From NCBI RefSeq assembly GCF_019649055.1, contig NW_026570590.1, positions 1-34,295 of the forward strand: a stretch of DNA of 34,295 nucleotides, written 5' to 3'. Made by a program: the position numbers and the translations under genes. Under the pieces are notes generated by a model. The model was given only the letters and a program-made list of their open reading frames with translations, did not search any database and was not told where the DNA came from. The number at the start of each line of letters is the position of its first letter. Within the stretch, counting starts at the first letter, position 1. This DNA comes from Paramacrobiotus metropolitanus (taxonomy: Eukaryota; Tardigrada; Eutardigrada; Parachela; Macrobiotidae). This document shows positions 550-26,639 of the stretch, piece by piece.

Positions 550-1426
550 CCGACAGCGGTTCTCTGATTAAATTGATTTGACTCGTCAGGCATATCTGGC
601 CTGTTATTTGACGTGTTATCCGCGACCAGCAAGGCGCAGGTCTGTATTACAGCAAAGTGCAACACCACAAGCGGTGCAAGTTCCCCATCTGACGTGGATT
701 TCCAGCTTCGGTTTTCGGTACGGTATCTTCAGCGAAGAACCGTGCTGTTTCCCTAGCTGTGCACGAGTACAAGAGTTCAGTCGTCAGTGTTCCTCGGTGT
801 AGAGTCTTCAGTGAAGACCTACACTGGTGTCACTGATACTCGGCAAGGCTTCAGCGAAGCCTAAGCCGTGGGCCACAAGAGGCGAAGCGCCGAAAGGGGC
901 GCACGGGAAAAGATAGATCAGACTCCTCCAAACTGGTTGTAGAGCACTACTGTTGCTACGGCACAGCCGGCACAGTAATAGTTTAATAGCGCGAGGCACG
1001 CTACGGAACAGCGGCGACGCGGGAGCGGAATTGGAAGAAGAATCTGGATCATTCGGATCATTTTCCCCGTGGAACGCGGAACGGACGGACGGTTAACAGG
1101 TAGAAAACCGTTAATAATTACGGGATTGGTTAAACGGCAAAATTGGTAATTTTCATTGGTCCGTACTGAGCTGAGCATAAAATTAGGCGGAGTTTTGCAC
1201 GCGGCGCGCATGTCTGGCCGTTGACCGTGACGTCAGGCAGATATAAAATCTAAGTGGACTAACGCTATTGGTCAGTTATCCGAGCTGTGATTGGCCGAAA
1301 ATTGAATCGAATAATTTGAGCTAGCTGACCAATAGGAACGAAGTAAACAACCCGAATGGGGATTTTCCGTTGAACTCGAGTCGTAACGGGAAATTTGATT
1401 TGAGATGAGATAATTGAGCGGGAAAG
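550..1426 (+). other. Structured 5' leader
   Basis: Untranslated region with no convincing ORF. It holds three hairpins sharing the core CTTCAGYGAAG: 726-738 (TCTTC/GAAGA around AGC), 804-818 (GTCTTC/GAAGAC around AGT) and 846-862 (AGGCTTC/GAAGCCT around AGC). The last sits inside an outer stem CGGC 841-844 / GCCG 865-868. A TATAAA string occurs near 1241. In retroelements this region usually carries packaging or dimerisation signals; that role here is inference. Confidence 0.6.
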
Positions 1427-1933
1427 TGACCTTTAAACTTGAATTGAGTTGAGAAGTGACCTTTTGAGTTCAGACAAAGGAAAAGTGACCTTTGATCAAA
1501 ATCGAGTTAGAAAGTGACCTTTAGTATAATTGAGCCGGAAATTGACCTTTAACTCGAAATTGAGCTGGAAAGTGACCTTTGAACAGAAATTGAGTCGAAA
1601 AGTGACCTTTACCAAAAAGTTGGAATTGACCAAATTGACTTAGTTAAGTGACCTCTATGATCTGAAAGTGATTAATAGTGACCTTTAACGAAGTTGAAAT
1701 TGAAGTGAATAGTAGTACAGCGACATCAGCAGCTGTAAGATTTCATTCGTAAAACGTGTTCCAACTGTAAAACGGTTTCGAAAGTTTTGTCTAAAGAGTG
1801 ACCTTTAGGGCAAATCTCTCGAACTTTTTAACGAAAAAGTGACCTTTAAACGGGACTTAATCGAAAATTTTCAACCGAAAAGTGACCTTTAACAGGGACT
1901 TAGCAAAATTTCACAGAACGAAAGTGACCTTTA
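1427..1933 (+). repeat. Degenerate minisatellite with fixed TGACCT core
   Basis: Thirteen TGACCT copies, all in one orientation, start at 1427, 1457, 1486, 1515, 1543, 1573, 1603, 1649, 1679, 1799, 1840, 1883 and 1925. All but one (1649) are followed by TT, and most read AGTGACCTTT. Spacing is 28-30 bp for the first seven and 41-43 bp for the last four. The sequence between cores (roughly gaaattgagt) is loosely conserved, whereas the core is nearly invariant. It ends about 75 bp before the gag start. Confidence 0.85.
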
Positions 1934-2007
1934 GGACAATTGAATAAACCATACAATAACGTTTGTGTGAGAACAATTGACAGGGGCGTCAAAGTTATCC
2001 GATCAAT

Positions 2008-5000
2008 ATGGACAAAGACCAAGAGGAACCGACATCACACGGCAGCCAGGGAAGCAGGAGCTCCCGAGGATCACAGCAAGGTGCAGTTGATCCTTATAAA
2101 AAGGAATACAAGTCGCTCGCACGCCCAGTCGGCCACGACAGACAGACCCGAGCGGCTGTGACCTTTGCAAGAAAGGACAGCAAGGGCAGCGATAGCACAT
2201 ACCAAGTGGCGCTAGGAGCTACACAGAATGAAGAAAGCTCTAGTGACGACCAGAAACATACTCCCGCGTCTGCGGCGGGAAGTAAACCGATGAACCAGAA
2301 AAAAGTCACTGGTGAGGACGGAACCACAAAAACGGAAGCGGAAGCAGTCGGGGCATCGCAGCTGGATGCTACCATTGTCAGAATAGAAGAGCAGGATAAA
2401 AAGGCAAACCTGACTCAATCGGAAGGTGGAAACCCAAAGGTCACCGAAGCGGAACTGGCTGAACTTGGATTGAGTGACCTTTCGCTGAATGACAAAACGG
2501 CGGATGATGACCTTTGGGCAACTCCAATGGTCTCCGATGAATCAAACGAATCATATTTCACGGATGACGAGACGACAATGAACATGTCCTTCCAAACTGC
2601 GATGAAGGAAGCTGACCGTGCTGAAGGGATAACACCATTCAAAGACATACCGGAACACCTTATCGAACGCACACAAACGGGAAAGGTCATCAATGTTCGA
2701 CCGCCATCACCGAACAGTCCCACAACGACTTTGAGGACTCGCGTGAGGGAGTTGGAAAGCGAACTCGAAGCCAAGGAAAGTCAGGCAATGAAACGAACAA
2801 AAGAAAACCGGGATAAACTGTCGTCCCTGGAAGCCCGGATTTATGAATTGGAACAACAACAAGTTGACTTGGAAAGCGCAGCAGACGAATGGAAAATCAA
2901 ATACGAACGTCAAAGAGAACTCGCGGAAGAATATTTGAAGATGGCAGATGACAGAGAAATGGAAGGTCATCTCGCAGTCGGTGACCTTAATGAGAGTATG
3001 TCCGAAGAAACAGCGGAAAGGTCACGGCACTTAGCAGAATTGAAGGACGAATGCGACTCGCTGAAGTCAAAGGTCACCGAAGCTGAAACGAAAAGAGATG
3101 AATATGCAACCAAACTCGCCGATGCTACTCAGAGGTTGTTGACGAACACCACTGAAGTCTTCAAGCTCAGGAATGACCTGAAGCTGCGCGACGAGAATAT
3201 CGGGACCCTTCAGAAGGAGTCATACGACCACCAGAGAAGGGCTGATGAAGCCGCTAAGGTGGCAAAGGACTTGCGAGATCTTACAGCCACCGAAGGTGTA
3301 CGGTTGAATAATGAAATAAGACAGGTGTTGGAAGAGAACAAAGCGTTGAAGGAGGACAACAAAAAGGTCACCGAAGAGATCAAAGAGTTGAAAGAAGCCG
3401 CCAAGACAATTGCCGACCAGGGCTTGAGATGGGAGCATGAGGCGCGCCTCCTGGACACAAAGGTCACGGCACTTGAATTGAAAGATAAAGAGTGGCAACA
3501 GACGGTCCATCAGAAGACACAGGAGATCATCAAACTCAACACGGAGTTGATCGATATGACCCAAACGGCAATGATGAGAGAAGATGAGGTCAATCAGACA
3601 AAAACCCAACTGAAAGCGGCAGCCGATGAGTATTCGAAACTGGAAAGAGACGTTACCCAGTTGGCGGAACACATCAGGAAAGTGGAAAATGATACTGAAA
3701 AGGTCACCCAGGAAAAAACGTTCCAACTACATCAGCACATGTTGAAGGTCAACGAAGAGAATCAAAAATTGAAAACTGAAAAGGAGGAATATCAGTTGAA
3801 AGTCAGACGCCTTGAAGACGAGAATAAGGCCCTCAACATGTCAAACAAACACAAGGATGAACAGCTTCTGCAATATGGAGTCAGAACAGCAGCAGTGGAA
3901 TCACCCCCGCCCAGTTACAGCAAGGCGCATGAAACGGGCACGGGTAAAAGTTTCAACTTCGAGATGCCACTACGAACTGGTACCGGCAAAGGAAATGTCA
4001 AAAATGAAACGAACGGCGACAAGGATAAAGACGACAAAGAACTACCATCAGGAGGTTATCCGCAAACGAGTCACGGTGATCCCTCCCAATTTCCCTCGCA
4101 CATTGAAACGAACGTCTTCTTCGATGAAGGGAGAAGAGACCGACCGCCCAGCCAGCAAGAGCGCCCACGAAAGTCCCGTTACGGAAAGGCGAAACGAAAT
4201 CAAAATGAAGATGAAAGCAGCGAAGAGGAGAACGACCCAACAGCAGAATCAACAGCGGCACAATTGACAAAGGCACTTAATTCGATGGCTCGGAAAACGA
4301 CGCTAGTGACCTTTGATGGAAGTCGGGATGCAGTTAATGGCTGGACACAATTGGTCAGGGATACGCAGCGAACCTACCGACTCACTGATGATCAAATCCT
4401 AATCGAAATAGCCAGTGCGGTGAAGGGACCGGCAAAAACCTGGTTCGAAGGAGAGAGAGAAATCGCACTCCAGGAAGAGATCGAATATACGGTTACAGAA
4501 TGGATGACCAAATTCAAGGATGAATATGGTGACCGCGACGAAGAAGTTCTTGGCTTACGGGAAGCCATGGCAAGGAAATTTGACCTAGGAAAAGAAACAC
4601 ATGACCAGTTTTACCAGGCGATAATGAAATATAAAGCGAAGCGGATTATCACTGAGAAACAAGCAGTCGGTTTCCTGATTGAAGGATGCAGAATAGACAG
4701 TGACCTTTATAAGGCACTGCGAACGCAACAGTGCAGAACACCAACCGAAATCAAGGATTTTTTCCGACATTGGTCGGCGGGAGAGGAAAAATATAAAGCG
4801 CCTAAAGGTCAACGTAATCAGGAATACGTGACCATCCGCCAAGGCCAAGTGGAGAATGTACCGCAACAGCGAATGGCAGCTGCACCAGTCCAGCAGCAAA
4901 TGGAATATCGTGCGGAAAACCCTGTCAGAGAGATCACCGAAAGAGTGACCTTTATTGACGGTCAGACGGGACAACCGATAACGTACGCAATGGTAGCAGC

Positions 5001-5811
5001 AATACAAGCGGCGGCTCAAGTGAGACCGGCACCCCAGAATGCGGCTCCGCCAGTACCACAGAACGCGGCCCCCTTGAACGTGGGGTTACCACAACAAGGA
5101 GTGGGCAATGGAAACTTTGGCGGAAATGGTTATGGAAACGGAAATTGGAATGGAGGTCAAGGGAACTTCCAAAACCAGAATCAAGGTCAAGGTTACTTCC
5201 GGAATCAACAAGGTCAACAAGGGTCACGGACAGAGTTTAAGTTCCAGCTGATTGATGGATGGGTGGCGAATGGAGTGCAGATGTGTCAGTACTGCATGTA
5301 CGGAAACCACCAGACGCAGGGATGCAAATTCGCCAACACACCACCGGAACAGAACCCGAACCTGTTTGCCTTTAACGAGTGGCAACGACTGCGCGGGCTC
5401 GGTGGTTGGCGTCAAGCAGTCGCAAACGGATATGACCTAATTGGCCAATGGTATCAGCACAAAGCAAACTTCCCAAATCAACAAGGAAACGGGAATAATG
5501 GAAATGGCGGCGGCCAAAATGGCGGCTATGGCCGTGGCGGCTACCGCGGCGGCTTCAGAGGAAGGAACAGAGGCTTTGGCCGCGGAAATTGGAACGGCGG
5601 CAACCGAAACGGCGGAAATGGAGGCGGCCAAGGAAACTACCAACAGGGTGGTGGCCAAAATAATGGTGGTGGCCAGAATAATGGAGGCGGACAAAATTAT
5701 GTCCCGGTAAATAACGGCGGACAAGGAAACGTGCAAGGCAACGTCCAAGGAAATGCGCAAGGCGCTCAACAAGGAGGTGCGCCGGTTCAGGGAAACGGGC
5801 AAGATCAGTAG
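2008..5811 (+). CDS. gag: Gag polyprotein (coiled-coil, capsid, zinc knuckle)
   Basis: 1267 residues, two to three times a usual Ty3/gypsy Gag. Residues 1-240 are polar and disordered. About 250-640 is a long Glu/Lys/Leu-rich coiled coil. About 765-930 resembles a retrotransposon capsid (motifs such as WTQLVRD and AKTWFEGER). A single CCHC zinc knuckle has Cys1093, Cys1096, His1101 and Cys1106, and the tail is rich in Gly, Asn, Gln and RGG-like repeats. The ATG at 2008 follows the leader repeats and opens the long frame. Gag would assemble the particle and bind genomic RNA. The last 94 nt overlap the pol frame (-1), and the stop codon lies inside the frameshift hairpin. Twenty-three AGGTCA-type motifs lie in the gene in all codon phases. 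Confidence 0.93.
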   Translation: MDKDQEEPTSHGSQGSRSSRGSQQGAVDPYKKEYKSLARPVGHDRQTRAAVTFARKDSKGSDSTYQVALGATQNEESSSDDQKHTPASAAGSKPMNQKKVTGEDGTTKTEAEAVGASQLDATIVRIEEQDKKANLTQSEGGNPKVTEAELAELGLSDLSLNDKTADDDLWATPMVSDESNESYFTDDETTMNMSFQTAMKEADRAEGITPFKDIPEHLIERTQTGKVINVRPPSPNSPTTTLRTRVRELESELEAKESQAMKRTKENRDKLSSLEARIYELEQQQVDLESAADEWKIKYERQRELAEEYLKMADDREMEGHLAVGDLNESMSEETAERSRHLAELKDECDSLKSKVTEAETKRDEYATKLADATQRLLTNTTEVFKLRNDLKLRDENIGTLQKESYDHQRRADEAAKVAKDLRDLTATEGVRLNNEIRQVLEENKALKEDNKKVTEEIKELKEAAKTIADQGLRWEHEARLLDTKVTALELKDKEWQQTVHQKTQEIIKLNTELIDMTQTAMMREDEVNQTKTQLKAAADEYSKLERDVTQLAEHIRKVENDTEKVTQEKTFQLHQHMLKVNEENQKLKTEKEEYQLKVRRLEDENKALNMSNKHKDEQLLQYGVRTAAVESPPPSYSKAHETGTGKSFNFEMPLRTGTGKGNVKNETNGDKDKDDKELPSGGYPQTSHGDPSQFPSHIETNVFFDEGRRDRPPSQQERPRKSRYGKAKRNQNEDESSEEENDPTAESTAAQLTKALNSMARKTTLVTFDGSRDAVNGWTQLVRDTQRTYRLTDDQILIEIASAVKGPAKTWFEGEREIALQEEIEYTVTEWMTKFKDEYGDRDEEVLGLREAMARKFDLGKETHDQFYQAIMKYKAKRIITEKQAVGFLIEGCRIDSDLYKALRTQQCRTPTEIKDFFRHWSAGEEKYKAPKGQRNQEYVTIRQGQVENVPQQRMAAAPVQQQMEYRAENPVREITERVTFIDGQTGQPITYAMVAAIQAAAQVRPAPQNAAPPVPQNAAPLNVGLPQQGVGNGNFGGNGYGNGNWNGGQGNFQNQNQGQGYFRNQQGQQGSRTEFKFQLIDGWVANGVQMCQYCMYGNHQTQGCKFANTPPEQNPNLFAFNEWQRLRGLGGWRQAVANGYDLIGQWYQHKANFPNQQGNGNNGNGGGQNGGYGRGGYRGGFRGRNRGFGRGNWNGGNRNGGNGGGQGNYQQGGGQNNGGGQNNGGGQNYVPVNNGGQGNVQGNVQGNAQGAQQGGAPVQGNGQDQ

Positions 5812-5832
5812 GCACCGGTGAGCCTACTGATC
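5790..5832 (+). promoter_or_regulatory. -1 ribosomal frameshift signal (gag to pol)
   Basis: The heptamer G_GGA_AAC at 5790-5796 is in register with the gag codons, as an X_XXY_YYZ slippery site requires. A 6-nt spacer (5797-5802) follows, then a perfect 11-bp stem: gatcagtaggc 5803-5813 with gcctactgatc 5822-5832, loop 5814-5821. The gag stop TAG (5809-5811) sits in the stem. The pol frame is -1 relative to gag and is open from 5715 onwards. All four expected parts are present. Confidence 0.9.
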
Positions 5833-8800
5833 GACCCGACCCGAAACCACCGGATAAAAGGGGAACGGAAAGGTCACCACTGCAGAATGGTACTGTAGTG
5901 AATGTGACCACTGCAACGGCTATAAGGATGCCGTCAGCGCAAAAAGAAAGTGGACCGGCTATATGGATGCCGCAACCACAGCAAACGGCTATACGGATGC
6001 CGCCACAGCAAATTGAGACGGCTAAATGGATGTCGTCATTGCAAAAGGAAATTGAAACGGCTATAAGGATGCCGTCACAGCAGCAAAAAGAACTGGTTAT
6101 CGGGAAACCAGTACAAGTGGATAAAAGGTCACCGCAGAATGGTACTGCGAGTGGAAACGCGCAACGGGACCAAAGGTCACCGCAGAATGGTACTGCGAGT
6201 GAAAATCGTCGTGACGGTAGCGCGACACTGCGAACAGCGCAGCAAAATGAAAGGTCACCGCACTGCAGCGAAGAAGTGCTGGCGCAACGACGCGCACAAC
6301 GGAATGCAAAGATTAAACAGGCGTTGCTGAACCAGAAGAAACCGCAGAACGATACTGCGCAAGAGGTAAATGAGCAACATGCAAAATTCCGGAAATACTT
6401 GGCAGAGAACGATAAGGCGAATGAGCCAAGTTGCGATTGTTACGGGGAACCAAAACCAAAGTTTTGGAATTGTTCCGAGGACGAGGAAGAGAAACTGATA
6501 AGGCAAAAATGGATGGAACAGAATATCGCTGTTACCAGTAAAGATGAAAGGTTACCTTCCGTAGGAAAAGTCCAAGTGAAAAGTAAAGGAGCAAGTGCGA
6601 ACGCTAAAGGTCACGGTGAAAGCGCCGTGTTAAAAGGTCAAGAAACAGACTTGACACTGCGAACAGCGCAGCATAAGAATAGCGAACCGGCACAGCAGAA
6701 CTCCGACGATTCACTTGTGGATGCAGTAACGCTGCAACGGAAGGAATTATGGCAAAAAGTAGCCTACAGACCGAACGGCAATCACGGGATGTGGATACCC
6801 GTGACGCCAAAAGCAAAACAGAAAGCGGGAATGTCTCAAGAAGATTACTGGGACATGCGAGAATTACGAACGCAACATGAGAGAAAACGACTGGAAGAAT
6901 TGGTTACCGGGAAAGAAGTCGAAAGGTCACCGAACCTTGCACCAGTATTCAATGCAATTGAATACAAGAATGCACAAGCTGACCTGAATAACTCGCGAAA
7001 CGCACCGCCGGAAGATAAACCGCTGAATTATGGAGAAAAGGTCCCCATACAAAAGTTGACGGGCGGCGGATTCGTCATAAAGCGCAATGAAAGGTCACAA
7101 GACTTAGCGCAAAATGAACAAAAAGAACGGTCAAATGAGATGGTGCAAATGCAACAGAGTAGTGCAGTCGAAAGGTCACGGGACTTCTCACAAGCACTAC
7201 AAAAGGATGCCAATGACAAGTCACCAGCCCGAACGGACGGAATGTCTTCGCAGACTGACCCGACGAAAACGAACAATGAAGTATCTGCAAAAGTGATTGA
7301 ATGGATGACCGAAAAGGGATATGATATGGTTACATACGAAAGGTCACCAGATGAGATGAAAGATAGCGAAGAAGATGAATTGAAGCAAGCTGATCAGATA
7401 ACAAGTGAAGTTATTGAAAAATTGCGAGATAAACGAAACGAAAACCGCAAAGAGGAACTGATTCATGAGACGATAAATGAAGTGACTAAAGGTCACGTGG
7501 ATAGCACAAAAGCAAACTCGCAAGTGCAGAATGGTGAAAAGGTCACCAGTGGTAAAGTGGCTGCAGAGAAGCCAGCAGACAAGAAAAAGCCGCAAAAATT
7601 CTACGACGTTCGAACTAACGTCCCACACAGGATTGATAAGCTGAGCGAAATACTGAAAGGTCACAGTACTTCAGCGAAAGGACCAGCGCTTCCCGATATG
7701 GATCCGGGACCAGTATCGCTAATTCCTGTGAAATGCAAGATCCATACACTGAAGATTCAAAACGGAAAACTGCCCAAAAGAATTGAAGCGTACACACATG
7801 AAGTGAAAGTGGGAGATATAAAGGTTAACGCAATGTTGGACACCGGCGCTGAGACGTCGCTGATCAGCAAACCGTTTTGTGAGAAAAATGGACTTCATAT
7901 GCTCCCACTACCACCAGACAGACTGGTGAGAATAAATGGAATTAGTGGAACGTCAGGATTCACGGTGACGCACTACTGTGTAGCACCAGTGACCTTAAGG
8001 AAAAAGACTAGTGAACATTCCTTTTACGTCCGACCGAAGTGTGACGACGTGCAGGTGTTACTGGGATTTGATTTCCTGGAAAAGAAATTTGTACTTATGG
8101 ATAATGAAGGCGAAGAAGAAAAAGAGGATGACCCGAAACCAGTTGCCAAAGTACAAGTCGGAAAGGTCACCGAACTCGTAAAGCAGACGGGAAATACTCA
8201 AACGGCTAATAAAACGCTAATCCCAGTACCAGAGGCACCGGGAATCGAGCAGAAAAAGACGGCAAAGAAAGAATTGTCGACATTTGAGCAGTTGAAATTG
8301 ATCCAATTGGAGATTGAAAACACATTAAATCGGACACTGCTGACACAGAAGGGAAGAGAAAAGGTCATCCCAGTACCAGAGGCACCGGGAATGACGAGAG
8401 TGCAGCAGAATGAGATTAGCCAACGGACAATCCCGGTACCAGAGGCACCGGAGAAGAAAAGTGAAAGTGCAAATGTCAACGAAAGGAAAAAGGAACCGCT
8501 TGCGCCAGATACGGATGAGGCGATCATATTTCTCCCGGACGGGAGAAGTATGATCGCAGATAACGGTGAGCAAAGAGCCACAGAAAAAGAATATGTCGAA
8601 AAAGTTATCCCAGTACCAGAGGCACTGGGAAAGGAAAACGAAAGGTCACCAGTGACAAGAGTTGTGAACTTGAAACCAGAGCGCACTTCGAACCTTTTCG
8701 AACCACGACCGGCTACCGAAAATGAAACCGAAGAAAAAGATTTGCAAAGAGTACCAGAGCGTACCCCGAATTTTTTCGAACCTCGATCTGCTACTGAAAA

Positions 8801-11800
8801 TGACGAAAGGTCACCAACACTCGAAGAGATAGCTGCTACACAGAAAGAAGCGGCGGTCGCAGCAAAACAATCGCTCGTGCCTGGTATGGAGTGGGCAAAG
8901 CCTATCCCAGTACCAGAGGCACTGGGAATAAAGACGGCCAAAGTGGATAAAAAGAGTGAAAGGTTACGGATATTGAAACGAATAGCTGAAGAAGAACAGA
9001 TGTTCGCGAGCGAAATCCGCGACAAAGCGCTTGAACGATTGAAAGGTCACCAGCTGAATAAAGAAACAGAGATTATTGAAATATCCTCCGACGAAGCGAG
9101 TGTAACGGAAATCGAATGTGGGCAGAAAACCACAACACAGAAGGTGGTTGCCAACCCGCAAACAAACCGAAGGATATTAACTCCAGAAGAACGAATGGGG
9201 AGTTGCGGACACGGTTACTACGAGGATCCGTGTAGAGTGCAACCACAATGGGAATGCACTGAATGTTGCCAAGACGCCTCCCAAGATGACCTTTCAGAAT
9301 GGCCGAGATGTAACGCTGCACTAGCAGACCTTAAAGGTCACGTCCACAAAGAATTGAAAAGTATTATGCGGACAAACGAAATGTGGAAACCACACATCGA
9401 ACGGTATCATTGGAACAGATATCGGACTTGGTTGTCATGTGTGAAAAACTTCATTACGGGGAGAGGAAAATGGCTGAATCATTGGCAGCAACGCGTGGAC
9501 AACGGAATCCAAGACCCTCTTGACCCGGTATCAACTGAACGGAAACTTGAAAGAGAGATAGACTCAATGAACGAGGAAGTACAGCTGTGGGAAGAAGCGA
9601 GGATAGAACTGTTCTGGGACTTTCGTATAAACCATATGTACAAAGGTCAAGGGAGAACAGTCATATTCCCAACAGGACTTGGTACACCGGTATACGAATC
9701 GGTGGTGATATTCTGTAAAGCACTCAAAGACGATAACTGGGAGATATTCGACAAATACTGGAGGGAATTTGAAGCGGAAATTCCTATATTCGATACAAAG
9801 GAAATGCGAGAATTGCAGATAACCCGGAAAAGAAGGTTACCGGGGCTGACGAAAAAAAAGAAGGTGACCTTCGCACCAGATCCAGATGGAGTAGAATACC
9901 CAGAACGAGGCGGTGATACATGGTGCATGTATGAAACGATTCCAAGTGACGACTGGGTCACTGAAGAGCTGATGGCAAATTGCGTTTTTGTTGGTCCTAA
10001 ACGACCTAAAGGTTATGAAACGGTCCAACAGGATGAAGGGGATAAGGTGACTGTAAAAGAAACGGAGAAGGAGGACACAGCTAAAGAGATAGCTGAAGGA
10101 GGATCGAACGAAACGGAGGAATCACGCACATCAGCCTTCAATGTCGCAAAGATGTTAACGGACAGAGGAGAGATGTGGAAGAAGTTTAAAGAGGAGTTGG
10201 AAAAGATATCGAATGAACAGCAAAACCCAGTAACTGAGGCAAAAAACGGGGGAAGGTCACTCGATAACGGTGAGGAATGTCCGCCGGTCGAGTCGACCGA
10301 AAAGCCAAGAATGAGCCCCGAAGAAATTGATGAGTTGGAAAAGTCAAAATTGGAAGAAGAAAGGTCAAACTCTGATCAGTCAGAAAGGTCACCAACAAGA
10401 ATCCGGGTAGCGAGGAGTCACCCGAGAATCGCTGCACGAAATGGAAGAAAAGCAAAGGAAGCGGACAAACCTCTGCTCAAAAATTTAAAAACGAAAAAAC
10501 TTAGCGATTCACGGGAAAATGAAAGTGACCTTTCATTAGAAGATGAGGGAGTTGACGAACGTCCACTTGAGAAAGTTGACAAAGGTCAAGCTACTGCACA
10601 AGAATACGAGAGCAGTGATTCGGACTCTGAATGGACGAGTTCAAGCGATAACTCAACGACTTCAGAAGATTCAGGTGTAAGTGACCTTTCAGAACAAGAG
10701 GACTTACTGGATTTGGATGAAGACGACGAGGTGGATGAAGAGAAAGAAAAGGATATTAAAGTCAGAAGATTGAAAGTGGAAAAGGCTAGAATGTCGAAAG
10801 ATGTGATCAAAGTCTACAGTGATCAAAGAATCAAATTGAAACCGTCAAACTGCACACGGGTAAAGGTCAAGATGGGAAAATATGCACCGGCTCAGAGCAA
10901 GTTGATGTTTACACCGACCCCACAAGTGGAAACTGAAGTGCAACCGTTGGCAGGAGTGACGGATCACAGGGGAAAATACTTTGAAATCGTCATTGCGAAT
11001 CACAGTAGCAAATACCGAGTCGTGAAGAAAAATCAGCTTCTCGGATACGTTGAACCGTACGAACATATGGAAAATGTAAAGGTCAACGCTGGGACAGTAA
11101 AGAACGTACTCGAAGACCCAGAGGTGGACGACACGACGAAAGCGGAACTGACAAAAATAATTGGAAATCTGAAATTAGGACCTGACCTAACCGAAGAACA
11201 AAAGAACGACGTGTACAACGCGTTCTGGGAATTCTGGAAAGTCCTACCGACGTCAAAGAAACCGTACGGAGATGTGAAAGGGGTCACTCACGTTATCGAT
11301 ACGGGAGACGCGAAACCAGTCAAATGTAATCCGGCCAGAACGAGTTGGACAGGCCGTGAATTCATTACAAAGCATATAGAAGAGATGTTGGCACAGGACG
11401 TGATCGAACCGTCAGACGCCGAGTGGAGCTTTCCAGTCGTGCTGGCTGTGAAAAAGAACGGCGACGGAACGATGGGAACAAGATTTTGCGTCAACTACAT
11501 TATGCTAAATAAGTTGACGAGGAAGAATAACTACCCGTTACCGAATCCGGACGAGTTGCTTGATGCGTGTGCAGGCAACAAATACTATGGAAAAATGGAC
11601 TTACAAAGTGGATTCTGGCAGATCCCAATGGATCCAGCGTCAATCAACAAGACGACCTTTGTAACGCAAGATGGAATGTATCGATTTAAAAGAATGCCAT
11701 TTGGAGTTTGTAATGGACCAGCAACATTCCAATTGTGCATGGATAAAGTACTGTCGAAAGCGAAAAGAAAGGGTTGCATTTTCGGGTACATTGACGACGT

Positions 11801-12857
11801 GATTTTCGCCGGAAAAACTTGGGCGATCTTCATGCAGAATTTGAGAAACGTCTTAATGAGTTTAGTCGAAGCGGGATTCACGATCAAACCGACCAAATGC
11901 GAATTCGGAATGAGACAAATGGGATTCCTGGGACATATCCTTAGTGAAGATGGAATTCGAATGGATCCTGAAAAGGTCACCGCAGTATCCGAATTCAAAC
12001 GACCTCAAACTGAACGACAATTAAGGTCATTCCTTGGACTGGCGAACTATTACCGCAAGTTCATAATGGGATATGCACAAAAGACTTGCCATTTGTACGA
12101 ACTGTTGAGACAAGATAAACAAGTGAAGAAGGACTGGACAAAGGTGCACGAAGAGGAATTCAACAGTCTGAAACAACTGTTATGCGAAGGTCCAGTATTG
12201 GCGAAATTTGACCCGGCAAAGCCGACCGTTATTGAATGTGACGCGAGTAAAGAGGGAATCGGAGCGGTATTATCTCAAGATGGCCACCCGATCGCATATG
12301 CGAGTCGCGTGTTACATGGAGCTGAAAGAAATTACGGCGTAACGGAATGGGAATGTCTGGCGGTAGTGTTTGCTGTCAGAAAATTCAAACCGTTTATTGA
12401 TTATGCGGAATTCACCGTAAGAACGGATCACCAGGCGCTGACCAACCTATTGAGGTCGGAAACGAATAAAGTTGGAATGAACCCGCGTTTGACCAGATGG
12501 GCAATGGCGCTGCAAGGTCACCAGTTCAAAATCGAGTATAAGCCGGGAAAGTATTGTGACAATGCGGACGCGTTATCAAGAGCGCCGATCGAAGGGCCAA
12601 CGTGTCACGAAGAAGAATTTGATGAAATCCCAAACTTCGAGGACTACAAGAAGGAGTTTGACACGAAAGAACCAGCAATTGAAATTGGACAGTTGTTCCT
12701 GCAGATGGTGGAACAGAGAGAAAAACGGTTAAAGGTCACTTCAGCTACGGCGAAGGAGTCGGCTGAAAACGAAGCAAAAGTGAACCGCGTAAAAAGCTGG
12801 TTGCCCACCGTGAGTGACTTAAAGGTCACCGGACTTGAAATGGAATCAGAACCTTAG
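5796..12857 (+). CDS. pol: Pol part 1: protease, reverse transcriptase, RNase H
   Basis: There is no ATG near the start; the frame is open through the gag overlap, so it is entered by -1 slippage. Residue numbers below count from the GTG at 5898. Residues 1-590 are low-complexity, with ERSP, KGH and SPQNGTAS repeats. The aspartic protease has DTGA at 648-651. A roughly 1000-residue linker follows, with IPVPEA repeats and an unrecognised Cys/Trp-rich segment (about 1095-1320). Reverse transcriptase starts near 1800 and has YIDD at 1964-1967. RNase H has its first catalytic Asp (ECDAS) near 2115, and further acidic positions (TEWE, TDHQ) are present. Such a long protease-RT linker is unusual for the family. 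It ends at TAG 12855-12857, in frame with the integrase ORF. Confidence 0.93.
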   Translation, partial: RARSVGTGEPTDRPDPKPPDKRGTERSPLQNGTVVNVTTATAIRMPSAQKESGPAIWMPQPQQTAIRMPPQQIETAKWMSSLQKEIETAIRMPSQQQKELVIGKPVQVDKRSPQNGTASGNAQRDQRSPQNGTASENRRDGSATLRTAQQNERSPHCSEEVLAQRRAQRNAKIKQALLNQKKPQNDTAQEVNEQHAKFRKYLAENDKANEPSCDCYGEPKPKFWNCSEDEEEKLIRQKWMEQNIAVTSKDERLPSVGKVQVKSKGASANAKGHGESAVLKGQETDLTLRTAQHKNSEPAQQNSDDSLVDAVTLQRKELWQKVAYRPNGNHGMWIPVTPKAKQKAGMSQEDYWDMRELRTQHERKRLEELVTGKEVERSPNLAPVFNAIEYKNAQADLNNSRNAPPEDKPLNYGEKVPIQKLTGGGFVIKRNERSQDLAQNEQKERSNEMVQMQQSSAVERSRDFSQALQKDANDKSPARTDGMSSQTDPTKTNNEVSAKVIEWMTEKGYDMVTYERSPDEMKDSEEDELKQADQITSEVIEKLRDKRNENRKEELIHETINEVTKGHVDSTKANSQVQNGEKVTSGKVAAEKPADKKKPQKFYDVRTNVPHRIDKLSEILKGHSTSAKGPALPDMDPGPVSLIPVKCKIHTLKIQNGKLPKRIEAYTHEVKVGDIKVNAMLDTGAETSLISKPFCEKNGLHMLPLPPDRLVRINGISGTSGFTVTHYCVAPVTLRKKTSEHSFYVRPKCDDVQVLLGFDFLEKKFVLMDNEGEEEKEDDPKPVAKVQVGKVTELVKQTGNTQTANKTLIPVPEAPGIEQKKTAKKELSTFEQLKLIQLEIENTLNRTLLTQKGREKVIPVPEAPGMTRVQQNEISQRTIPVPEAPEKKSESANVNERKKEPLAPDTDEAIIFLPDGRSMIADNGEQRATEKEYVEKVIPVPEALGKENERSPVTRVVNLKPERTSNLFEPRPATENETEEKDLQRVPERTPNFFEPRSATENDERSPTLEEIAATQKEAAVAAKQSLVPGMEWAKPIPVPEALGIKTAKVDKKSERLRILKRIAEEEQMFASEIRDKALERLKGHQLNKETEIIEISSDEASVTEIECGQKTTTQKVVANPQTNRRILTPEERMGSCGHGYYEDPCRVQPQWECTECCQDASQDDLSEWPRCNAALADLKGHVHKELKSIMRTNEMWKPHIERYHWNRYRTWLSCVKNFITGRGKWLNHWQQRVDNGIQDPLDPVSTERKLEREIDSMNEEVQLWEEARIELFWDFRINHMYKGQGRTVIFPTGLGTPVYESVVIFCKALKDDNWEIFDKYWREFEAEIPIFDTKEMRELQITRKRRLPGLTKKKKVTFAPDPDGVEYPERGGDTWCMYETIPSDDWVTEELMANCVFVGPKRPKGYETVQQDEGDKVTVKETEKEDTAKEIAEGGSNETEESRTSAFNVAKMLTDRGEMWKKFKEELEKISNEQQNPVTEAKNGGRSLDNGEECPPVESTEKPRMSPEEIDELEKSKLEEERSNSDQSERSPTRIRVARSHPRIAARNGRKAKEADKPLLKNLKTKKLSDSRENESDLSLEDEGVDERPLEKVDKGQATAQEYESSDSDSEWTSSSDNSTTSEDSGVSDLSEQEDLLDLDEDDEVDEEKEKDIKVRRLKVEKARMSKDVIKVYSDQRIKLKPSNCTRVKVKMGKYAPAQSKLMFTPTPQVETEVQPLAGVTDHRGKYFEIVIANHSSKYRVVKKNQLLGYVEPYEHMENVKVNAGTVKNVLEDPEVDDTTKAELTKIIGNLKLGPDLTEEQKNDVYNAFWEFWKVLPTSKKPYGDVKGVTHVIDTGDAKPVKCNPARTSWTGREFITKHIEEMLAQDVIEPSDAEWSFPVVLAVKKNGDGTMGTRFCVNYIMLNKLTRKNNYPLPNPDELLDACAGNKYYGKMDLQSGFWQIPMDPASINKTTFVTQDGMYRFKRMPFGVCNGPATFQLCMDKVLSKAKRKGCIFGYIDDVIFAGKTWAIFMQNLRNVLMSLVEAGFTIKPTKCEFGMRQMGFLGHILSEDGIRMDPEKVTAVSEFKRPQTERQLRSFLGLANYYRKFIMGYAQKTCHLYELLRQDKQVKKDWTKVHEEEFNSLKQLLCEGPVLAKFDPAKPTVIECDASKEGIGAVLSQDGHPIAYASRVLHGAERNYGVTEWECLAVVFAVRKFKPFIDYAEFTVRTDHQALTNLLRSETNKVGMNPRLTRWAMALQGHQFKIEYKPGKYCDNADALSRAPIEGPTCHEEEFDEIPNFEDYKKEFDTKEPAIEIGQLFLQMVEQREKRLKVTSATAKESAENEAKVNRVKSWLPTVSDLKVTGLEMESEP
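5878..6671 (+). repeat. Cluster of short hairpin repeats at the start of pol
   Basis: Small inverted repeats recur here. CGCAG-n7-CTGCG occurs at 6133-6149, 6181-6197 and 6343-6359. CTGCG-AACAG-CGCAG occurs at 6228-6242 and 6657-6671. A longer relative, CACTGCAG-n7-CTGTAGTG, is at 5878-5900. Between 5917 and 6085 a unit like acggctataaggatgccgt (ACGGC/GCCGT ends) recurs five times and is read as AIRMP. Several hairpins directly follow an AAAGGTCAC motif. All are inside the open pol frame. Confidence 0.75.
8221..8926 (+). repeat. Five IPVPEA(P/L)G repeats with hairpin potential
   Basis: Copies start at 8221, 8368, 8431, 8608 and 8904. Each has the form TCCCRGTACC-AGA-GGCACYGG(G)A, in which the two arms can pair. 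In copies 3, 4 and 5 the variable positions pair (CGGT with ACCG, or CAGT with ACTG); copies 1 and 2 have a mismatch there. The peptide is IPVPEAP/LG. They lie in the disordered linker between protease and RT. Confidence 0.7.
12855..12857 (+). other. In-frame UAG separating RNase H from integrase
   Basis: The protease-RT-RNase H frame ends at TAG 12855-12857, and the integrase frame continues in the same phase, with its first ATG only 12 nt later (12870) inside an AAAGGTCATGG string. Integrase is normally part of the same polyprotein, so expression requires stop readthrough, termination-reinitiation, or a product lacking integrase. A recent single-base nonsense change is the main alternative. 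Confidence 0.8.
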
Positions 12858-12869
12858 AACGGAAAGGTC

Positions 12870-15140
12870 ATGGGACGGGATGAAACAGCGCAGAATAAAG
12901 ACGACCTTTGGGAAACGGACAAAGTTACACAGGCGTTGAACGAATGTCCGATTAAGTTGTTGAGATTCCCAAAACAGACGAAAAAGAGATACAAACCGCT
13001 ACCACGCTGCAAGGTCATCAAGGACTGGAATGAACTTAGCACAGCGACAGTCCGCATTGTCAACCTGCAAGGTGACGAGGAAGAGGAAGATGACTCGAAT
13101 TTACAATTGCGCAATAAACAGTTAAAAGATCCCCATTTGGCAATGATAATAGACGAATTGGAACACCTACCAGATGCTGAAACGAGATCGAAATTTGAAG
13201 TTCATTACCAGTTGTGGAACGGCATATTGTACCGAGTAAAGGATAAAAATGGAAGACTTGAAAGGTCATATGTGGTACCGTTGTCAATGCGAAGAGCGAT
13301 AATTCACGCATTGCACGACGAGAAAGCGGCAGGACATTTGGGATTCGAAAAGACATTGACAGCAATCCGGCTCCGATATTATTGGGACCGAATGAGTACA
13401 GATGTGAAGAATTACATAACTGCCTGTCAAGGATGTCAATTTCGTAAAACACCAAGGAAATGCCCACCTGGTAAATTGCAAGAGATAAAGGTCGGACATC
13501 CGTTCTTTCGAGTCTACGCGGATCTGAAAGGACCATTGCTACCGACGAAGAAACGTGGATATAAGTACATAGCGGTGTTTATTGACCAATTGACGAAATA
13601 TGTGATCGCTGTACCGATGAAAACGGCAACGGCTAAAGAATTTGCGAAAGTGTTCGTGAAACACGTGATATTGGTACACGGAGCACCGCACATCCTACAC
13701 ACGGATCGTGGACGGCACTTCACAGCTGAAGTTTTGACAAAGGTCACCAATGTGTTTAAGATTAAACACACATTTGGAACAGCATATCACCCAGAAGGTC
13801 AAGGCCAAGTCGAAAGACAGATGCAGACGATTGCGGATGGCTTGGCGCAATACTTGAAAGCGGGAAACGAAAGGAAGTTCAACAAGTACCTCCCATATGT
13901 CATTTCGGCGATGAACAGAGTCGTACACGCCACGACCGGATATTCAGCATATTATATGCTGCACGGCAGAGAAATGACAATGCCGGAAGACGTGGTCACA
14001 AAAACGAATATCCCGGACGATTATGGGACCCCAGATGAATGGGTGGAGACCATGAAAAAGAATTTGACCTTTGCCGAAGAGGTGGCGAGATGTAACATCA
14101 AAGATGCATATGAAAAGAATGCGGAAATCTACAACAAGAAGAAATCGGAACCGAACTTCAAAGTCGGCGACTTTGTATTGATACGGCTCCCAAAGGATAC
14201 GAAACAAGGGAAGAAGGAAAACCAATCGGACTTTAAGTCAAAATATGATAAAGTATGGAAAATCCTTAGCTTCCCGCGAGCAAACGAAGCAGAGGTCATT
14301 GAGCAGAACCCAAAGAAGGAAGCGGACTTAAAGGTCGTCTCAATCGACCGCCTGAAACCATGGCACCCACCGTTGCCAGATGAAAAGTTGGAAGGCAATC
14401 CTCAAGGAGAGATGGAATCAGAGCGAAGTCCACAAAATGATTTGGATCCCCAACGCAAATCATTTTTCGAACCACCTCTGCTACCCGAAAAGGAAAAGTC
14501 GGAAGAAGATAAACTCAGTGAAGCCGAGCATGCTCCGAAAAATGGTACCAGTCAATTTTTCGAACCACGCTCTCTGCTACCTGACACAGGTGGAGATAAA
14601 CCAAAAAAGAAGAGGGGGAGACCGAGGAAAGAGGATAAAGACTTCGAGACAGCGGTTACAATCAAGTTGAACGCAGAAGCCGGAAATTTGGCAGAAAGGT
14701 CACTGGGAAAAGAGACCGAGTCAGGCTCAAAAGTAGCAGAACGTACTGCGAATGAATCTTTAGCGTCCAAAAGGGACTTGCAACAACCCTTTTTTGAACC
14801 ACGCACTGCTACCGGAGACAAAGATGACCTTTCGAAACAGCGAACTGGCGCCGAGATATCAGAGCGCGATTCGAATTTTTTTGAACCACGCACTGCTACG
14901 GTGAATGATAAGGACCTCATAGAAACGAGAAAAGAGGAGATAGAAGCGGTCAAATCTAAAGCTGAACAATTGGGCCGCGATATAGCGAAAGCCATTGATG
15001 AGAGAAAGGTTAAACAGAAGAGAAAGAAACTGACTCCTACAGAATTGTTGACCCAGAAAGGTGAAGTGGAAGATGCGGCCGACAAAGAACTCCTTGATCG
15101 GATAACTAAAGGACGCAAAGACAATAACCCACAAAAATAA
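12870..15140 (+). CDS. Pol part 2: integrase with GPY/F-like module and disordered tail
   Basis: 756 residues. The N-terminal zinc finger (HHCC type) uses His149, His156, Cys186 and Cys189. The catalytic core has Asp218, Asp279 and Glu315, with the canonical 35-residue spacing between the last two. A GPY/F-like module follows (near 430-480, ending in DRLKPWHPP). From about 490 the protein is disordered and repeats FFEPR-type segments that also occur in the first pol ORF. I see no chromodomain. It catalyses insertion of element cDNA into the host genome; the ACAG duplication is its footprint. It is in the same frame as the preceding ORF and separated from it by one UAG. The chosen ATG is the first after that stop. 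Confidence 0.92.
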   Translation: MGRDETAQNKDDLWETDKVTQALNECPIKLLRFPKQTKKRYKPLPRCKVIKDWNELSTATVRIVNLQGDEEEEDDSNLQLRNKQLKDPHLAMIIDELEHLPDAETRSKFEVHYQLWNGILYRVKDKNGRLERSYVVPLSMRRAIIHALHDEKAAGHLGFEKTLTAIRLRYYWDRMSTDVKNYITACQGCQFRKTPRKCPPGKLQEIKVGHPFFRVYADLKGPLLPTKKRGYKYIAVFIDQLTKYVIAVPMKTATAKEFAKVFVKHVILVHGAPHILHTDRGRHFTAEVLTKVTNVFKIKHTFGTAYHPEGQGQVERQMQTIADGLAQYLKAGNERKFNKYLPYVISAMNRVVHATTGYSAYYMLHGREMTMPEDVVTKTNIPDDYGTPDEWVETMKKNLTFAEEVARCNIKDAYEKNAEIYNKKKSEPNFKVGDFVLIRLPKDTKQGKKENQSDFKSKYDKVWKILSFPRANEAEVIEQNPKKEADLKVVSIDRLKPWHPPLPDEKLEGNPQGEMESERSPQNDLDPQRKSFFEPPLLPEKEKSEEDKLSEAEHAPKNGTSQFFEPRSLLPDTGGDKPKKKRGRPRKEDKDFETAVTIKLNAEAGNLAERSLGKETESGSKVAERTANESLASKRDLQQPFFEPRTATGDKDDLSKQRTGAEISERDSNFFEPRTATVNDKDLIETRKEEIEAVKSKAEQLGRDIAKAIDERKVKQKRKKLTPTELLTQKGEVEDAADKELLDRITKGRKDNNPQK
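14462..14905 (+). repeat. FFEPR repeats (T-run plus GAACCACG)
   Basis: Four copies start near 14464, 14556, 14789 and 14875 with a run of T followed by (C)GAACCAC and then CTGCTAC a few bases later. Two more lie in the first pol ORF near 8694 and 8768. They encode FFEPR(S/T)AT-like segments in disordered chain. The spacing is irregular, so this is a dispersed rather than a tandem repeat. Confidence 0.7.
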
Positions 15141-15280
15141 GATTAATGGGGGTTCATGATATTAGGAACGGAAGTTCGAAAGGTGTAAGGGTCATAAGAC
15201 GTACACCGGCCAGTCGTTATCGCTTTCATTGGTAGTGGAAAGGTCACCAAACTCTGACGAAAATTCATCAAAAATGTCAA

Positions 15281-15293
15281 AGGTCAAAGGTCA
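15281..15293 (+). promoter_or_regulatory. Perfect DR1 of the AGGTCA half-site
   Basis: AGGTCA-A-AGGTCA is a direct repeat spaced by one base. This is the arrangement bound by HNF4, RXR and COUP-TF type nuclear-receptor dimers. It is the only copy I found with 1-bp spacing; other motifs in the element are single half-sites. Confidence 0.5.
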
Positions 15294-15785
15294 TCGAAAC
15301 GGGCGTCAGAAAGGTCATTACGGATGAAAAATCAACAGAAAGGTCATCCAATCGAAAGGTCATCAGACTCGGACTGAATCACACGGGAGAAATGAAAGGT
15401 CAAGATATGCGAATTCAAACAGAACTGCGAAAAGGTCACGGGAGTCCGGAATCATCAGAGAGGTCGAAAGGTCCTCAAAGTAGTCAGAACGGTCATCACA
15501 AGGTCATCGAAGAGGAAAGGTCATCAAAAATTGTCGTCCAGTTGAAAGGTCATCAGACTCTGAATGAAGCACAAAAAGAAGTTAAAACGTCGACCGAAGC
15601 AAAAGCGGAAAAAGTGAAAGGTCAATCGAAAGGTTAAGAGACTCTGGCAGAAATCCAAATGGAACAGCCAAAAGGTCACGAAAGATCTAGATCAGCAAAA
15701 ATGAAAGGTCATCAGACGAGATTGTGAAGCCAGATCGCCGAAAACCATAAGGTCAAGTGACCAATGAACCAAAGGTCAAGCGCAA

Positions 15786-16166
15786 ATGAACTCAAAGGTC
15801 AAATGTCAAATGAACCAAGTGTCAAGTGAAAGGTCAAGTGACAGACCAAGTGAAAGGTCACGGGACTTGACAGAAAAAGACGAACAGCCTAAAGGTCAAG
15901 AAACATCTGAAACTGCGACGGAAGAAACTCAACTGAAAGGTCACGGGACTTCAGAAAAAGGGGAGAAAGAAAAGGTCATGCTCCCAATGGACAAGGCAGC
16001 GGCAGAAGCAGAAGCTGCATCTGCGCGACAGGTGTACCAGAAATCGTTGTTTACACTGCTGAAAGAGGCTTCAGCGACGGAGAAACCGAAAGGTCAAGAA
16101 ATTTCACTGACGACCGAGAAATCAAAAGGTCACGAGACTTGGCCGCAAAAAGAGAAGACTGACTAA
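15786..16166 (+). CDS. Possible small ORF in the 3' region (126 codons)
   Basis: An ATG-started frame whose product is hydrophilic and built largely from translated AGGTCA motifs (KGQ, KGH, ERS), with one stretch (about residues 70-100) of more ordered, Ala/Gln/Leu-rich sequence. A shorter frame of the same character is at 15392-15637. I recognise no family. It may be an accessory protein or a by-product of motif repetition; the latter is at least as likely. Confidence 0.2.
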   Translation: MNSKVKCQMNQVSSERSSDRPSERSRDLTEKDEQPKGQETSETATEETQLKGHGTSEKGEKEKVMLPMDKAAAEAEAASARQVYQKSLFTLLKEASATEKPKGQEISLTTEKSKGHETWPQKEKTD

Positions 16167-16720
16167 CCGAAATTGACTCAGTCTTCGTCCGGATCATTGG
16201 CGAGATTGACAACCGATGAGAAACAGTGTCAGGAAACAGACCCAACGGACTCGGCATTCCCCCAGAAACCGGATACGTGCGGTACACCAGCGAAATGATA
16301 CATGCTACCAGAACACAACAAAAATGCGTGGAGAATGGTCATAACTGAAGCGACATTGGATAATATGTCGAACAAATGGAACGACATGACCTTTTAAGTT
16401 ACAAGGCTGTCAACTTCGAACGGGAAGAACTTTGTACTCGAATAATGGCGAACAGATCAGAAACAGTCGAATGTTAATTAGTTATCGATCGAGCACTTGA
16501 ACTGGTGTAAACGTCAAAAACGTGAAAGGTCACCATGCGAGAATGAGCTTAATAATGCAACGTGAAAGGTCATCACGTTAAAGTACCGAAAAGGTCATCG
16601 GAAGCGATTATGATGGTTAAGTATAAAGGTCACGTGACATATTACTTAAACTGTATTCGTATATTTGTGGTTTTCAGTGTTTATAGCACAGAACCAGAAA
16701 GGATAAAGAAATCATGTGGA

Positions 16721-17190
16721 GCATTTATTGGGGTTGAAATTGATTCGGTCTACAAAGCCGGCCCCAAGGGAGTTGTTACGGCAGTTAGCCGGCTCTCCTC
16801 CTTAAGCGATTCAGTGTTATAAATTGGCAAGAGAAACTACGGTAATCAAGCCGGATCTCTTGAAGACGAAAGGGGGCCACAAGCGGCGAAAAAGAGAAAG
16901 ACAACAGGTGGAAATATTAATGGGGTTGAATTTGATTCGGTCCATTAGCCGGCCCCATCAGAGACGCTACGGTGTACTATGCCGGCCACTCTCCTTAAGC
17001 GATTCAGTGTCAAAACTTAACGAGAGAAATAACGGTAATCAAGCCGGATCTCTCGTACCGAAGATGGGCCACAAGCGGCGAACAAGAGTAAAAGATTTAA
17101 TGTGGAAGCGTCATGGGGTAAATTTAATGCGGTAGTTAGCCGGCCCCATCAGAGATGCTACGGTAAACTCTGCCGGCACTCTGGCCGCTC
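16721..17190 (+). repeat. About 190-bp tandem repeat, 2.4 imperfect copies
   Basis: Copies begin near 16721, 16912 and 17105 (the ggggt landmark recurs at about 191-193 bp). Shared landmarks are gattcggtc, GCCGGCCCC, ttaagcgattcagtgt, cggtaatcaagccggatctct and gggccacaagcggcgaa. The third copy is truncated. The units contain GCCGGC palindromes and no AGGTCA motif, in contrast to the flanking sequence. Confidence 0.75.
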
Positions 17191-17948
17191 GAGGCATGTT
17201 GAAGTTGGATGTGCGACGGAAAGGTCAAATCGAAATCTTTATCAGGGAGGCAAGCAAAGAAGTGCTTGAAGGCCGCAGAAAATTGGCTAAGTTCCTCCAT
17301 GACCTTTAATCGAAGTTTGAAGCGAAGTTGGATGACCTTTGGGATCATTACCGCCCAAGAGAGTCACCGTATTGGAATTTAAGTCGCATGACCTTTTGGG
17401 ACCATTAACCCAAAACGAGTCGCACATCTCAACGGATCATCCCAACAAAGGATGACCTTTACCAGGGAGGAAGCGAACTACGCTTGTCTTAAGACGTCCC
17501 TCCATGACCTTTATGGATCTCATTTTAAGTCGTACAATTGATACGCACCATATCCCAAAGATTGAAGCAGTATTCCCTAAGTCGTACTTGATACGCACCC
17601 GATTCTCAAGCGGATTGTGATGAAAGTCGCACTATGGATGCGCAGAATTGCTCAAGCGAGCGGAATGGGCCAAGGTGCGGAAAACGGTGGACAGGACCTG
17701 TGACCTTTACGAGTCAGAAATGGAGGATCCTAGTCTACATTGATTAATTGCTTCTGTTGATCTGTTTAACTGTTGATCTGTTTTTGTATTAGAATTGATA
17801 TGGAATAGTATTTTGATACAGATCTCTTTATTTCACATTGTGCATTTGGAATTGATGTGATAAAATGGAATAAGAGAATTTGATGTTTTTGAGCACGCAC
17901 AGACACCGGCGACCGCCGTCTTTTCGTGGATTCGGGAGTGTGTCCAGC

Positions 17949-22200: not shown

Positions 22201-22202
22201 AA

Positions 22203-26637: not shown

Positions 26638-26639
26638 TC

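Follow-up and report, generated by a model that had tools for sequence, protein, structure and literature searches.

A short word written along a tardigrade LTR retrotransposon

A young 18.1-kb LTR element of the tardigrade Paramacrobiotus metropolitanus carries one short word, AAAGGTCA, along most of its length, so that the coding sequence of a mobile element is constrained at the DNA level by about 100 copies of a single word, which selection preserves base by base. Related lineages of the element have different words in the same places, an observation that goes beyond the original prediction for this sequence and that, for the two lineages concerned, suggests a private recognition tag. In our preferred reading, to which we give a probability of about 0.4, the word serves as a self-tag dispersed over the double-stranded DNA of the element, to which a protein of the nuclear-receptor type would bind and thereby keep the element expressible.

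The element occupies positions 202-18316 of the window (the whole stretch of 34,295 nucleotides analysed) and is thus larger than the 1427-17706 initially proposed. Its Ty3/gypsy-type character is seen in the identical 337-bp LTRs, the ACAG on both sides and the PR-RT-RNase H-IN domain order recognised with Pfam (Table 1). The sequence following the 5' LTR, TGGTAGCAGAG..., presumably resembles the complement of initiator tRNA-Met. A protein search with gag yielded 21 homologues, and two scans of viral contigs confirmed no relatives. The long pol linkers also contain other short repeats.

Table 1. Parts of the element and distribution of the word (positions in the window)
Feature	Position	Strand	Description	Basis
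5' LTR	202-538	+	337 bp, preceded by ACAG; no exact word	identical to 17980-18316
Likely primer-binding site	539-560	+	TGGTAGCAGAG...	sequence directly after 5' LTR
Leader array	1412-1945	-	13 AGGTCA, every one on the minus strand; 12 are exact AAAGGTCA	partly ~30-bp tandem repeats
gag ORF	2008-5811	+	24 AGGTCA (14 exact AAAGGTCA, both strands)	ORF and word counts
pol ORF	5898-12857	+	protease, RT, RNase H, long linkers; 37 AGGTCA (30 exact AAAGGTCA)	Pfam, counts
Integrase ORF	12870-15140	+	8 AGGTCA (5 exact AAAGGTCA)	Pfam, counts
3' untranslated cluster	15241-16632	+	29 plus AGGTCA, 1 minus (16387)	positions, densities
Second 3' cluster	17222-17706	-	6 minus AGGTCA, 1 plus (17222)	positions
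3' LTR	17980-18316	+	337 bp, followed by ACAG	identical to 5' LTR

Between positions 1427 and 17706, AGGTCA/TGACCT occurs 120 times (81 plus, 39 minus), with nine copies in the remainder of the window. A first-order Markov model predicts about seven (7.2 for 1412-17710), an approximately 17-fold excess, and the flank 18400-34295 holds 9 copies against 6.0 expected; these values bear out the original prediction of about 119 copies, a 13-fold excess and flanks at chance level. The true word is longer than AGGTCA: AAAGGTCA is found in 96 exact copies in the same interval, with 0.88 expected, and 18 of its 24 one-mismatch forms appear at most twice each, the other six (three first-base changes, AAAGGTTA, AAAGGTCG and AAATGTCA) being seen four to six times. 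Information is limited to these bases, the next one being rarely G (2/120). On the 5' side, constraint reaches no further than the two bases AA that precede the half-site (at position -2, A in 99/120 and C in 6/120; at most 0.15 bit at each position from -3 to -12), and the longer A/T-rich extension that had been proposed was not found. The sequences flanking the 120 sites are unrelated to one another.

The word reaches its highest density in untranslated DNA, the catalytic domains hold few copies, and exact copies are absent from 202-1411 and 17711-18316, LTRs included. Untranslated sites form strand-coherent blocks (5 runs among 49 sites, with 0/10000 permutations giving as few), whereas the orientation runs in coding DNA are random (31 runs, p 0.80). 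Across the genome, AAAGGTCA is concentrated in a single transposon lineage and otherwise rare, not every genomic cluster being tied to an element, and AAAGGTCAN{5,30}AAAGGTCA pairs number 2524 compared with 47 for the reversed pattern.

Selection on the word acts on DNA

Plus-strand copies in the first pol ORF fall in the three codon phases 13, 8 and 9 times, exactly as first counted. In 1000 codon shuffles per ORF that kept the protein, gag, pol and integrase had on average 0.97, 2.48 and 0.35 copies of AAAGGTCA (maxima 5, 8 and 3), against 14, 30 and 5 observed, and both orientations exceed the synonymous expectation in coding DNA. A protein-level cause is rejected by these results, together with the synonymous conservation described below, and the constraint on the word acts on DNA, in agreement with the earlier claim that nucleic acid rather than protein is its target.

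We compared 30 copies of 4.25 kb each, covering 13 sites. Synonymous change amounts to 17/979 where the third base falls inside the motif and to 10397/35731 elsewhere; the codon-matched expectation is 273, so that synonymous change within the motif is suppressed about 16-fold. Only 20% of motif columns are polymorphic, with a minor fraction of 0.0087; in controls matched for region and phase the values are 49% and 0.090, and 0/2000 draws were as low as the motif. Sites were kept in 296/319 cases on the plus strand (11 sites) and in 57/58 on the minus strand (2 sites only), and a more distant copy (L072), at 72% nucleotide identity, retains 9/13 sites. The synonymous-rate signal is so clear that the word can be outlined from it with no experiment. 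The leader array is conserved in six other copies and differs in size between copies.

A neutral spread of short repeats by slippage or template switching might be evoked by this variable array size, by the leader units resembling ~30-bp tandem repeats and by the other repeats of the pol linkers. It is nonetheless highly improbable given how strongly synonymous change is suppressed within the word, the unrelated flanks of its copies and the sites retained in L072. Synonymous shuffles and decay inside versus outside the motif in related copies had been named beforehand as the two refuting tests of the original prediction, which withstands both. Motif counts exceed those of the shuffles; change proved unequal across the related copies, leaders included, with the word kept, and neutral spread is rejected on that ground.

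Related lineages carry other words

The word of the present lineage (A) is AAAGGTCA; in leader and gag, lineage B mainly uses AGCTCA/AGATCR and lineage C uses AGATCG, as AACGATCT, the B and C words being looser than the A word and defined from few pieces. We know of no receptor sites corresponding to AGATCG or AGCTCA. Lineage B has almost no AAAGGTCA and lineage C few (4 in 5 kb), and five are present in a 4.25-kb copy not assigned to a lineage (L074). Paired B words lie upstream of 8/8 B gags and paired C words upstream of 11/16 C gags, compared with 0/21 for paired B or C words upstream of A gag matches. The hexamers encoded by the motif are rarely compatible in proteins of the sister clade (P0028, 3/23; P0036, 1/16; controls 0.36 and 0.34) and often so in the own-clade pol homologue P0039 (26/30 versus 0.67 in controls). 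Among the single-protein identity tests, 1/21 reached p<0.05 (P0028, 0.042), and a test of word switching at homologous sites between lineages gave a weak excess only. The protein tree was built without P0038, whose aligned piece is shorter than 350 residues.

The lineages are 93% identical in RT/RNase H but only about 52-55% in gag, a disparity in keeping with the main rival of the self-tag reading, in which a reader encoded by the element itself (Gag or the pol middle region) would bind the word and protect or mark its own DNA, word and reader changing together. A matching pattern is shown by the targets of VANC21 and VANC6, which belong to VANDAL families related to each other, as presented in the accessible part of PMC5735166. 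We give such a reader a lower probability than the nuclear-receptor reading; Pfam recognised no DNA-binding domain in gag or in the pol linkers, and an element-encoded reader offers no reason for the A word to coincide with the site of a known receptor (see below). The structure model of the pol middle region has a mean pLDDT of 41, too poor to interpret.

A function in the genomic RNA, as a protein-binding site or through pairing between UGACCUUU in the leader and AAAGGUCA downstream, would fit the strand-coherent blocks outside genes (13/13 minus in the leader, 29/30 plus in the first 3' cluster) and the AACGANCT-type words of lineages B and C, nearly all of which are on the sense strand. 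We consider it improbable: in coding DNA both orientations are enriched and their runs are random, and the two sites on the minus strand are retained no less well than the plus sites. The repeated RNA-binding site of the original prediction is disfavoured for the same reasons.

Candidate readers of the word

Sites of NR5A/ERR or ROR receptors are extended on the 5' side, either as in TCAAGGTCA or by a longer A/T-rich stretch, and since the word has neither these readers are disfavoured. Receptor dimers are rejected because no dimer spacing is preferred, with one DR1 pair among the 120 sites (gaps 0-8). Over all of its 8 bp, AAAGGTCA is identical to the NBRE, which NR4A receptors bind as monomers according to the available text of PMC6912296. 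In the same genome, three exons of one contig (C45) code for an NR4A-like DNA-binding domain; compared with the human NR4A1 query they reach 83, 76 and 67% identity, and the first of them reads CEGCKG (L063). The proposal of a host orphan receptor is partly supported by this match and by the candidate domain; the NBRE comparison falls short in that the words of lineages B and C are mostly different ones, and with words differing between related lineages one fixed host receptor is insufficient by itself.

According to the self-tag reading, a sequence-specific DNA-binding protein would occupy the tag along the chromatin of the element and act as an enhancer spread over its length or as a coat against silencing, thanks to which 18 kb of DNA could stay transcribable. 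In lineage A the reader would most simply be the host NR4A/HR38, bound as a monomer to the NBRE, and the related lineages might be read by other receptors of the tardigrade set. Several observations sit uneasily with this reading. One host NR4A cannot account for three words, and both lineage C and L074 still contain AAAGGTCA; no exact motif occurs in the LTR or from there to position 1411, which is odd for a promoter-proximal enhancer; about 100 sites exceed the need of an ordinary enhancer; and monomer binding does not require strand-coherent untranslated blocks, which local duplication could cause. The tag might alternatively act on the cDNA, a host DNA-binding protein coating the long reverse-transcribed molecule and aiding its nuclear entry or protection. 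The spread of sites in both orientations along most of the copied molecule, over coding and non-coding DNA, speaks for such a coat; the uneven distribution, with the densest arrays in the leader and 3' region, makes it unlikely.

The availability of several words in one host provides a natural experiment for finding the readers and for asking whether transposons keep their expression or anti-silencing private by means of tags, and for the nuclear receptors of tardigrades it raises a question of binding that can be put to the test. P. metropolitanus has 42 C4-type zinc-finger proteins, and one group of their tree is almost only tardigrade, in the portion of PMC12941274 available. More broadly and more tentatively than for the self-tag itself, we envisage an animal LTR family that writes a lineage-private word lengthwise, through genes and intergenic DNA alike, and changes it between lineages in one host, its readers being host nuclear receptors of this partly tardigrade-specific set; in that case, transposons and receptors would co-evolve, with AGNTCR as their common alphabet of half-sites.

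Comparison with known systems

Known NBREs number a few per promoter. In the gypsy insulator of Drosophila, also carried by a Ty3/gypsy element, about a dozen sites for the host protein Su(Hw) are clustered in the 5' untranslated region, that is, a single cluster of another motif, in contrast with some 100 sites lengthwise in the tardigrade element. Private transposon tags have so far been described, to our knowledge, in the VANDAL elements of Arabidopsis, which are class II transposons. The lineage-A word, unlike the VANDAL words, coincides with a nuclear-receptor site. The original prediction knew of no retroelement with this design; the open-access literature searched, seen in part, likewise contained none, but a similar design exists in these DNA transposons (PMC5735166).

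The closest known design is that of VANDAL21/Hiun and its VANC protein (PMC5735166; PMC10398659, both in the portions available). As in the tardigrade, a short word is present at high density in one transposon family, related families have different words, and non-coding DNA contains tandem, same-orientation blocks whose array size differs between copies (PMC5735166). The VANDALs, which have a VANA transposase, differ from the tardigrade LTR element in that their words are mainly non-coding, whereas in the latter they extend through gag and pol too, in every phase; the VANDAL reader, VANC, is element-encoded and was demonstrated by ChIP and EMSA (PMC5735166), compared with a candidate nuclear receptor in the tardigrade. 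Within retroelements, AGGTCA-type half-sites are also known from the nuclear-receptor response elements of Alu repeats (PMC1785376). These are reported as DR2 pairs that multiplied as a non-coding SINE was copied, compared here with many selected single sites in one coding element.

Distribution of the word in the element

The excess of AGGTCA/TGACCT that the original prediction had put at about 119 copies within a retrotransposon, with only chance occurrence in the flanks, is borne out by our counts (120 in 1427-17706 against about 7.2 expected; 9 against 6.0 expected in the flank). The actual unit is AAAGGTCA, present 96 times for an expectation of 0.88. Eighteen of its 24 one-mismatch forms occur at most twice and the remaining six 4-6 times each, while the motif profile carries nearly no information 5' of position -2 and, at +6, chiefly avoids G. 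Coding needs do not explain this abundance, since codon-preserving shuffles of the three ORFs gave means of 0.97, 2.48, and 0.35 words where 14, 30, and 5 are observed. The density of AAAGGTCA follows coding freedom.

Features of the window and density of exact AAAGGTCA
Feature	Position	Words per kb	Description
LTR element	202-18316		Ty3/gypsy-type; two 337-bp LTRs, identical to each other; ACAG flanking both ends
5' part	202-1411	0
Leader		20.1
gag	2008-5811	3.7	No Pfam match
Protease + RT + RNase H ORF (first pol ORF)	5898-12857	4.3	Pfam domains
Protease		0
RT-RNase H		0.8
Pol linkers	5912-6089; 8213-8934		Repeated peptides, IPVPEAPG-type x5 and AIRMP-type x5, for which the motif does not account
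Stop	12855-12869		Divides pol from integrase ORF in the window copy, both in one frame; frame open (~3,000 codons) in several other copies
Integrase ORF	12870-15140	2.2	Pfam domain
3' region		13.2
Tandem repeat	16788-17182		193 bp, ~2 copies, GCCGGC-rich, without motif, within the 3' region
GPCR ORF	19559-20380 (minus)		Adjoins element; rhodopsin-type; 7tm_1, Srx, Srsx models
P-element-like DNA transposon	26965-32947		Bounded by 143-bp inverted repeats, 99% complementary
THAP + P transposase-like domains	29350-31233 (minus)		Within P-element-like transposon

The identity of the two LTRs points to a recent insertion. Proteins encoded in the window have matches among Paramacrobiotus metropolitanus entries. 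The C-terminal part of Gag contains a CX2CX4HX4C knuckle, recognized by eye in the translation, and its relatives are publicly annotated as, for example, myosin-2 heavy chain-like, golgin, or bicaudal D homolog. Elsewhere in the genome, dense AAAGGTCA clusters occur on another contig (C1:202657-219706 and C1:565258-567723), with no RT nearby among the 100 matches listed; they may be parts of other or more diverged elements.

Conservation of the word as DNA

We aligned 30 oriented copies (the window and 29 others at 83-93% nucleotide identity) across 4.25 kb around RT (window 9750-14000). Variation affects 20% of the columns within the 13 exact sites of the window, with a mean minor fraction of 0.0087, against 46% and 0.084 in non-motif columns and 49% and 0.090 in controls matched by region and codon phase, none of 2000 draws being as low as the motif. 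Each site is found unaltered in 24-30 copies out of 29-30, on the plus strand (296/319 over 11 sites) as on the minus (57/58 over two). Where the amino acid is unchanged, third bases differ in 17 of 979 cases inside the motif (eight of them at TTA codons; codon-matched expectation, 273) and in 10397 of 35731 outside, counts that are not independent events owing to the shared ancestry of the copies but that compare inside and outside within the same copies. The motif thus changes less than its surroundings, and of the DNA or RNA constraint originally proposed, the synonymous rate and the retention of both orientations favor selection as DNA. In L072, a more distant copy at 72% nucleotide identity, nine of the 13 sites are retained, and its 4.25 kb contain 17 exact words.

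The untranslated leader of six other copies holds 8 to 14 exact words each, on the minus strand throughout. Compared with the window, its motif columns differ by 9.9% and its other columns by 21.9% (4 of 2000 control draws reached a value this low), the 5' end being poorly aligned in two of the six rows. Within the window leader array, seven units have the whole word in common whereas 12 bases on one side show pairwise identities of 0.19-0.71, a comparison weakened because the other side is partly conserved too. We conclude, with a probability of about 0.9, that the word is a selected, lineage-specific double-stranded DNA tag.

Different words in related lineages

The Gag tree of this genome separates a 19-row clade, which includes the window (lineage A), from the pair of homologues P0028 and P0036 (100/100 support). 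KVT, one of the peptides encoded by the word, occurs 3-7 times per protein in 19 of 21 homologues and is absent from that pair because lineage B DNA carries other words than AAAGGTCA, which is found once per piece in L069 and L071. The B leader is enriched in AGCTCA (22 vs 1.8 expected), AGATCA (11 vs 2.1), AGATCG (11 vs 2.4), AGCTCG (10 vs 2.0), AGTTCG (10 vs 1.5), and AGGTCA (5 vs 0.7); in B pol pieces several AGNTC words are only loosely enriched, 2- to 4-fold, and a piece mostly 3' of pol (L076) has little excess. In lineage C (L077, gag 71% identical to P0028), the leader favors AGATCG (17 vs 1.8) and AGATCA (10 vs 2.0), and the clearest 8-mer is AACGATCT, with 12 copies in 5 kb; AAAGGTCA is still present four times. 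These B and C words, defined from few pieces, are looser than the A word. Nearly all of those with the form AACGANCT (L069, L070, L071, L073, L075, L077) are in sense orientation, in contrast to the A word within coding sequence. L074, of unassigned lineage, has five AAAGGTCA in 4.25 kb.

Across the 169.8-Mb assembly, to which the window contributes bases 1-34295 of contig C370, the C pair of AACGATCT was counted 56 times and its reversed pattern 9 times, the B pair (AACGAGCT then GAGCTGA) 38 times and its reversed pattern 7 times; 29/56 and 16/38, respectively, are located at a listed gag. We scored pairs up to 1.6 kb upstream of 45 gag matches grouped by identity to P0028. The B pair precedes all eight matches at 79% identity or more and 0/37 others, the C pair 11/16 at 63-73% and 0/29 others, and neither precedes any of the 21 at 56-61%, the window among them. 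This split by gag lineage strengthens the association of words with lineages. Lineages A and B are 93% identical in RT/RNase H, 84% in protease, and 52-55% in gag. Lineages whose polymerases are almost alike thus bear distinct words at matching locations. In the two B pieces L070 and L073, none of 12 alignable sites matches the A word exactly. Comparisons of homologous sites (4/21, 5/21, 5/22, and 3/16; scrambled controls, 6-9%) do no more than suggest that one word directly replaced the other site by site.

Candidate readers

Both orientations exceed synonymous expectation in coding DNA, both are conserved, and pairs show no fixed spacing, which points to a monomeric DNA-binding protein. Such a reader might be made by the element itself, like the VANC anti-silencing proteins of Arabidopsis VANDAL transposons, the closest known design: according to excerpts of PMC5735166, VANC21 binds YAGTATTAY and VANC6 targets contain AGTTGTCC/AGTTGTAC. 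As far as excerpts of that paper and of PMC10398659 describe them, VANDAL words are arranged in tandem and in one orientation, in non-coding arrays that change fast. Pfam searches detected no DNA-binding domain in our element beyond the integrase zinc finger, but the one predicted fold was of poor quality, so an element-encoded reader is a plausible alternative.

The favored candidate is a monomeric nuclear-receptor-type protein. AAAGGTCA equals the NBRE, the monomer site of NR4A receptors, in the excerpted text of PMC6912296, and contig C45 encodes an NR4A-like domain in three exons (83, 76, and 67% identity). Through such a reader the tag may keep the element expressed, a tentative proposal to which we give somewhat less than even odds. 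The words of all three lineages match AGNTCR, each lineage preferring particular bases at positions three and six, a shared form that possibly reflects a nuclear-receptor half-site alphabet; that other receptors recognize the B and C words is a guess. The genome also encodes FTZ-F1-like, ERR-like (two), and RXR-like (two) domains, assigned by reading, and excerpts of PMC12941274 report 42 C4-type zinc-finger proteins in P. metropolitanus, with one tree group almost exclusively tardigrade.
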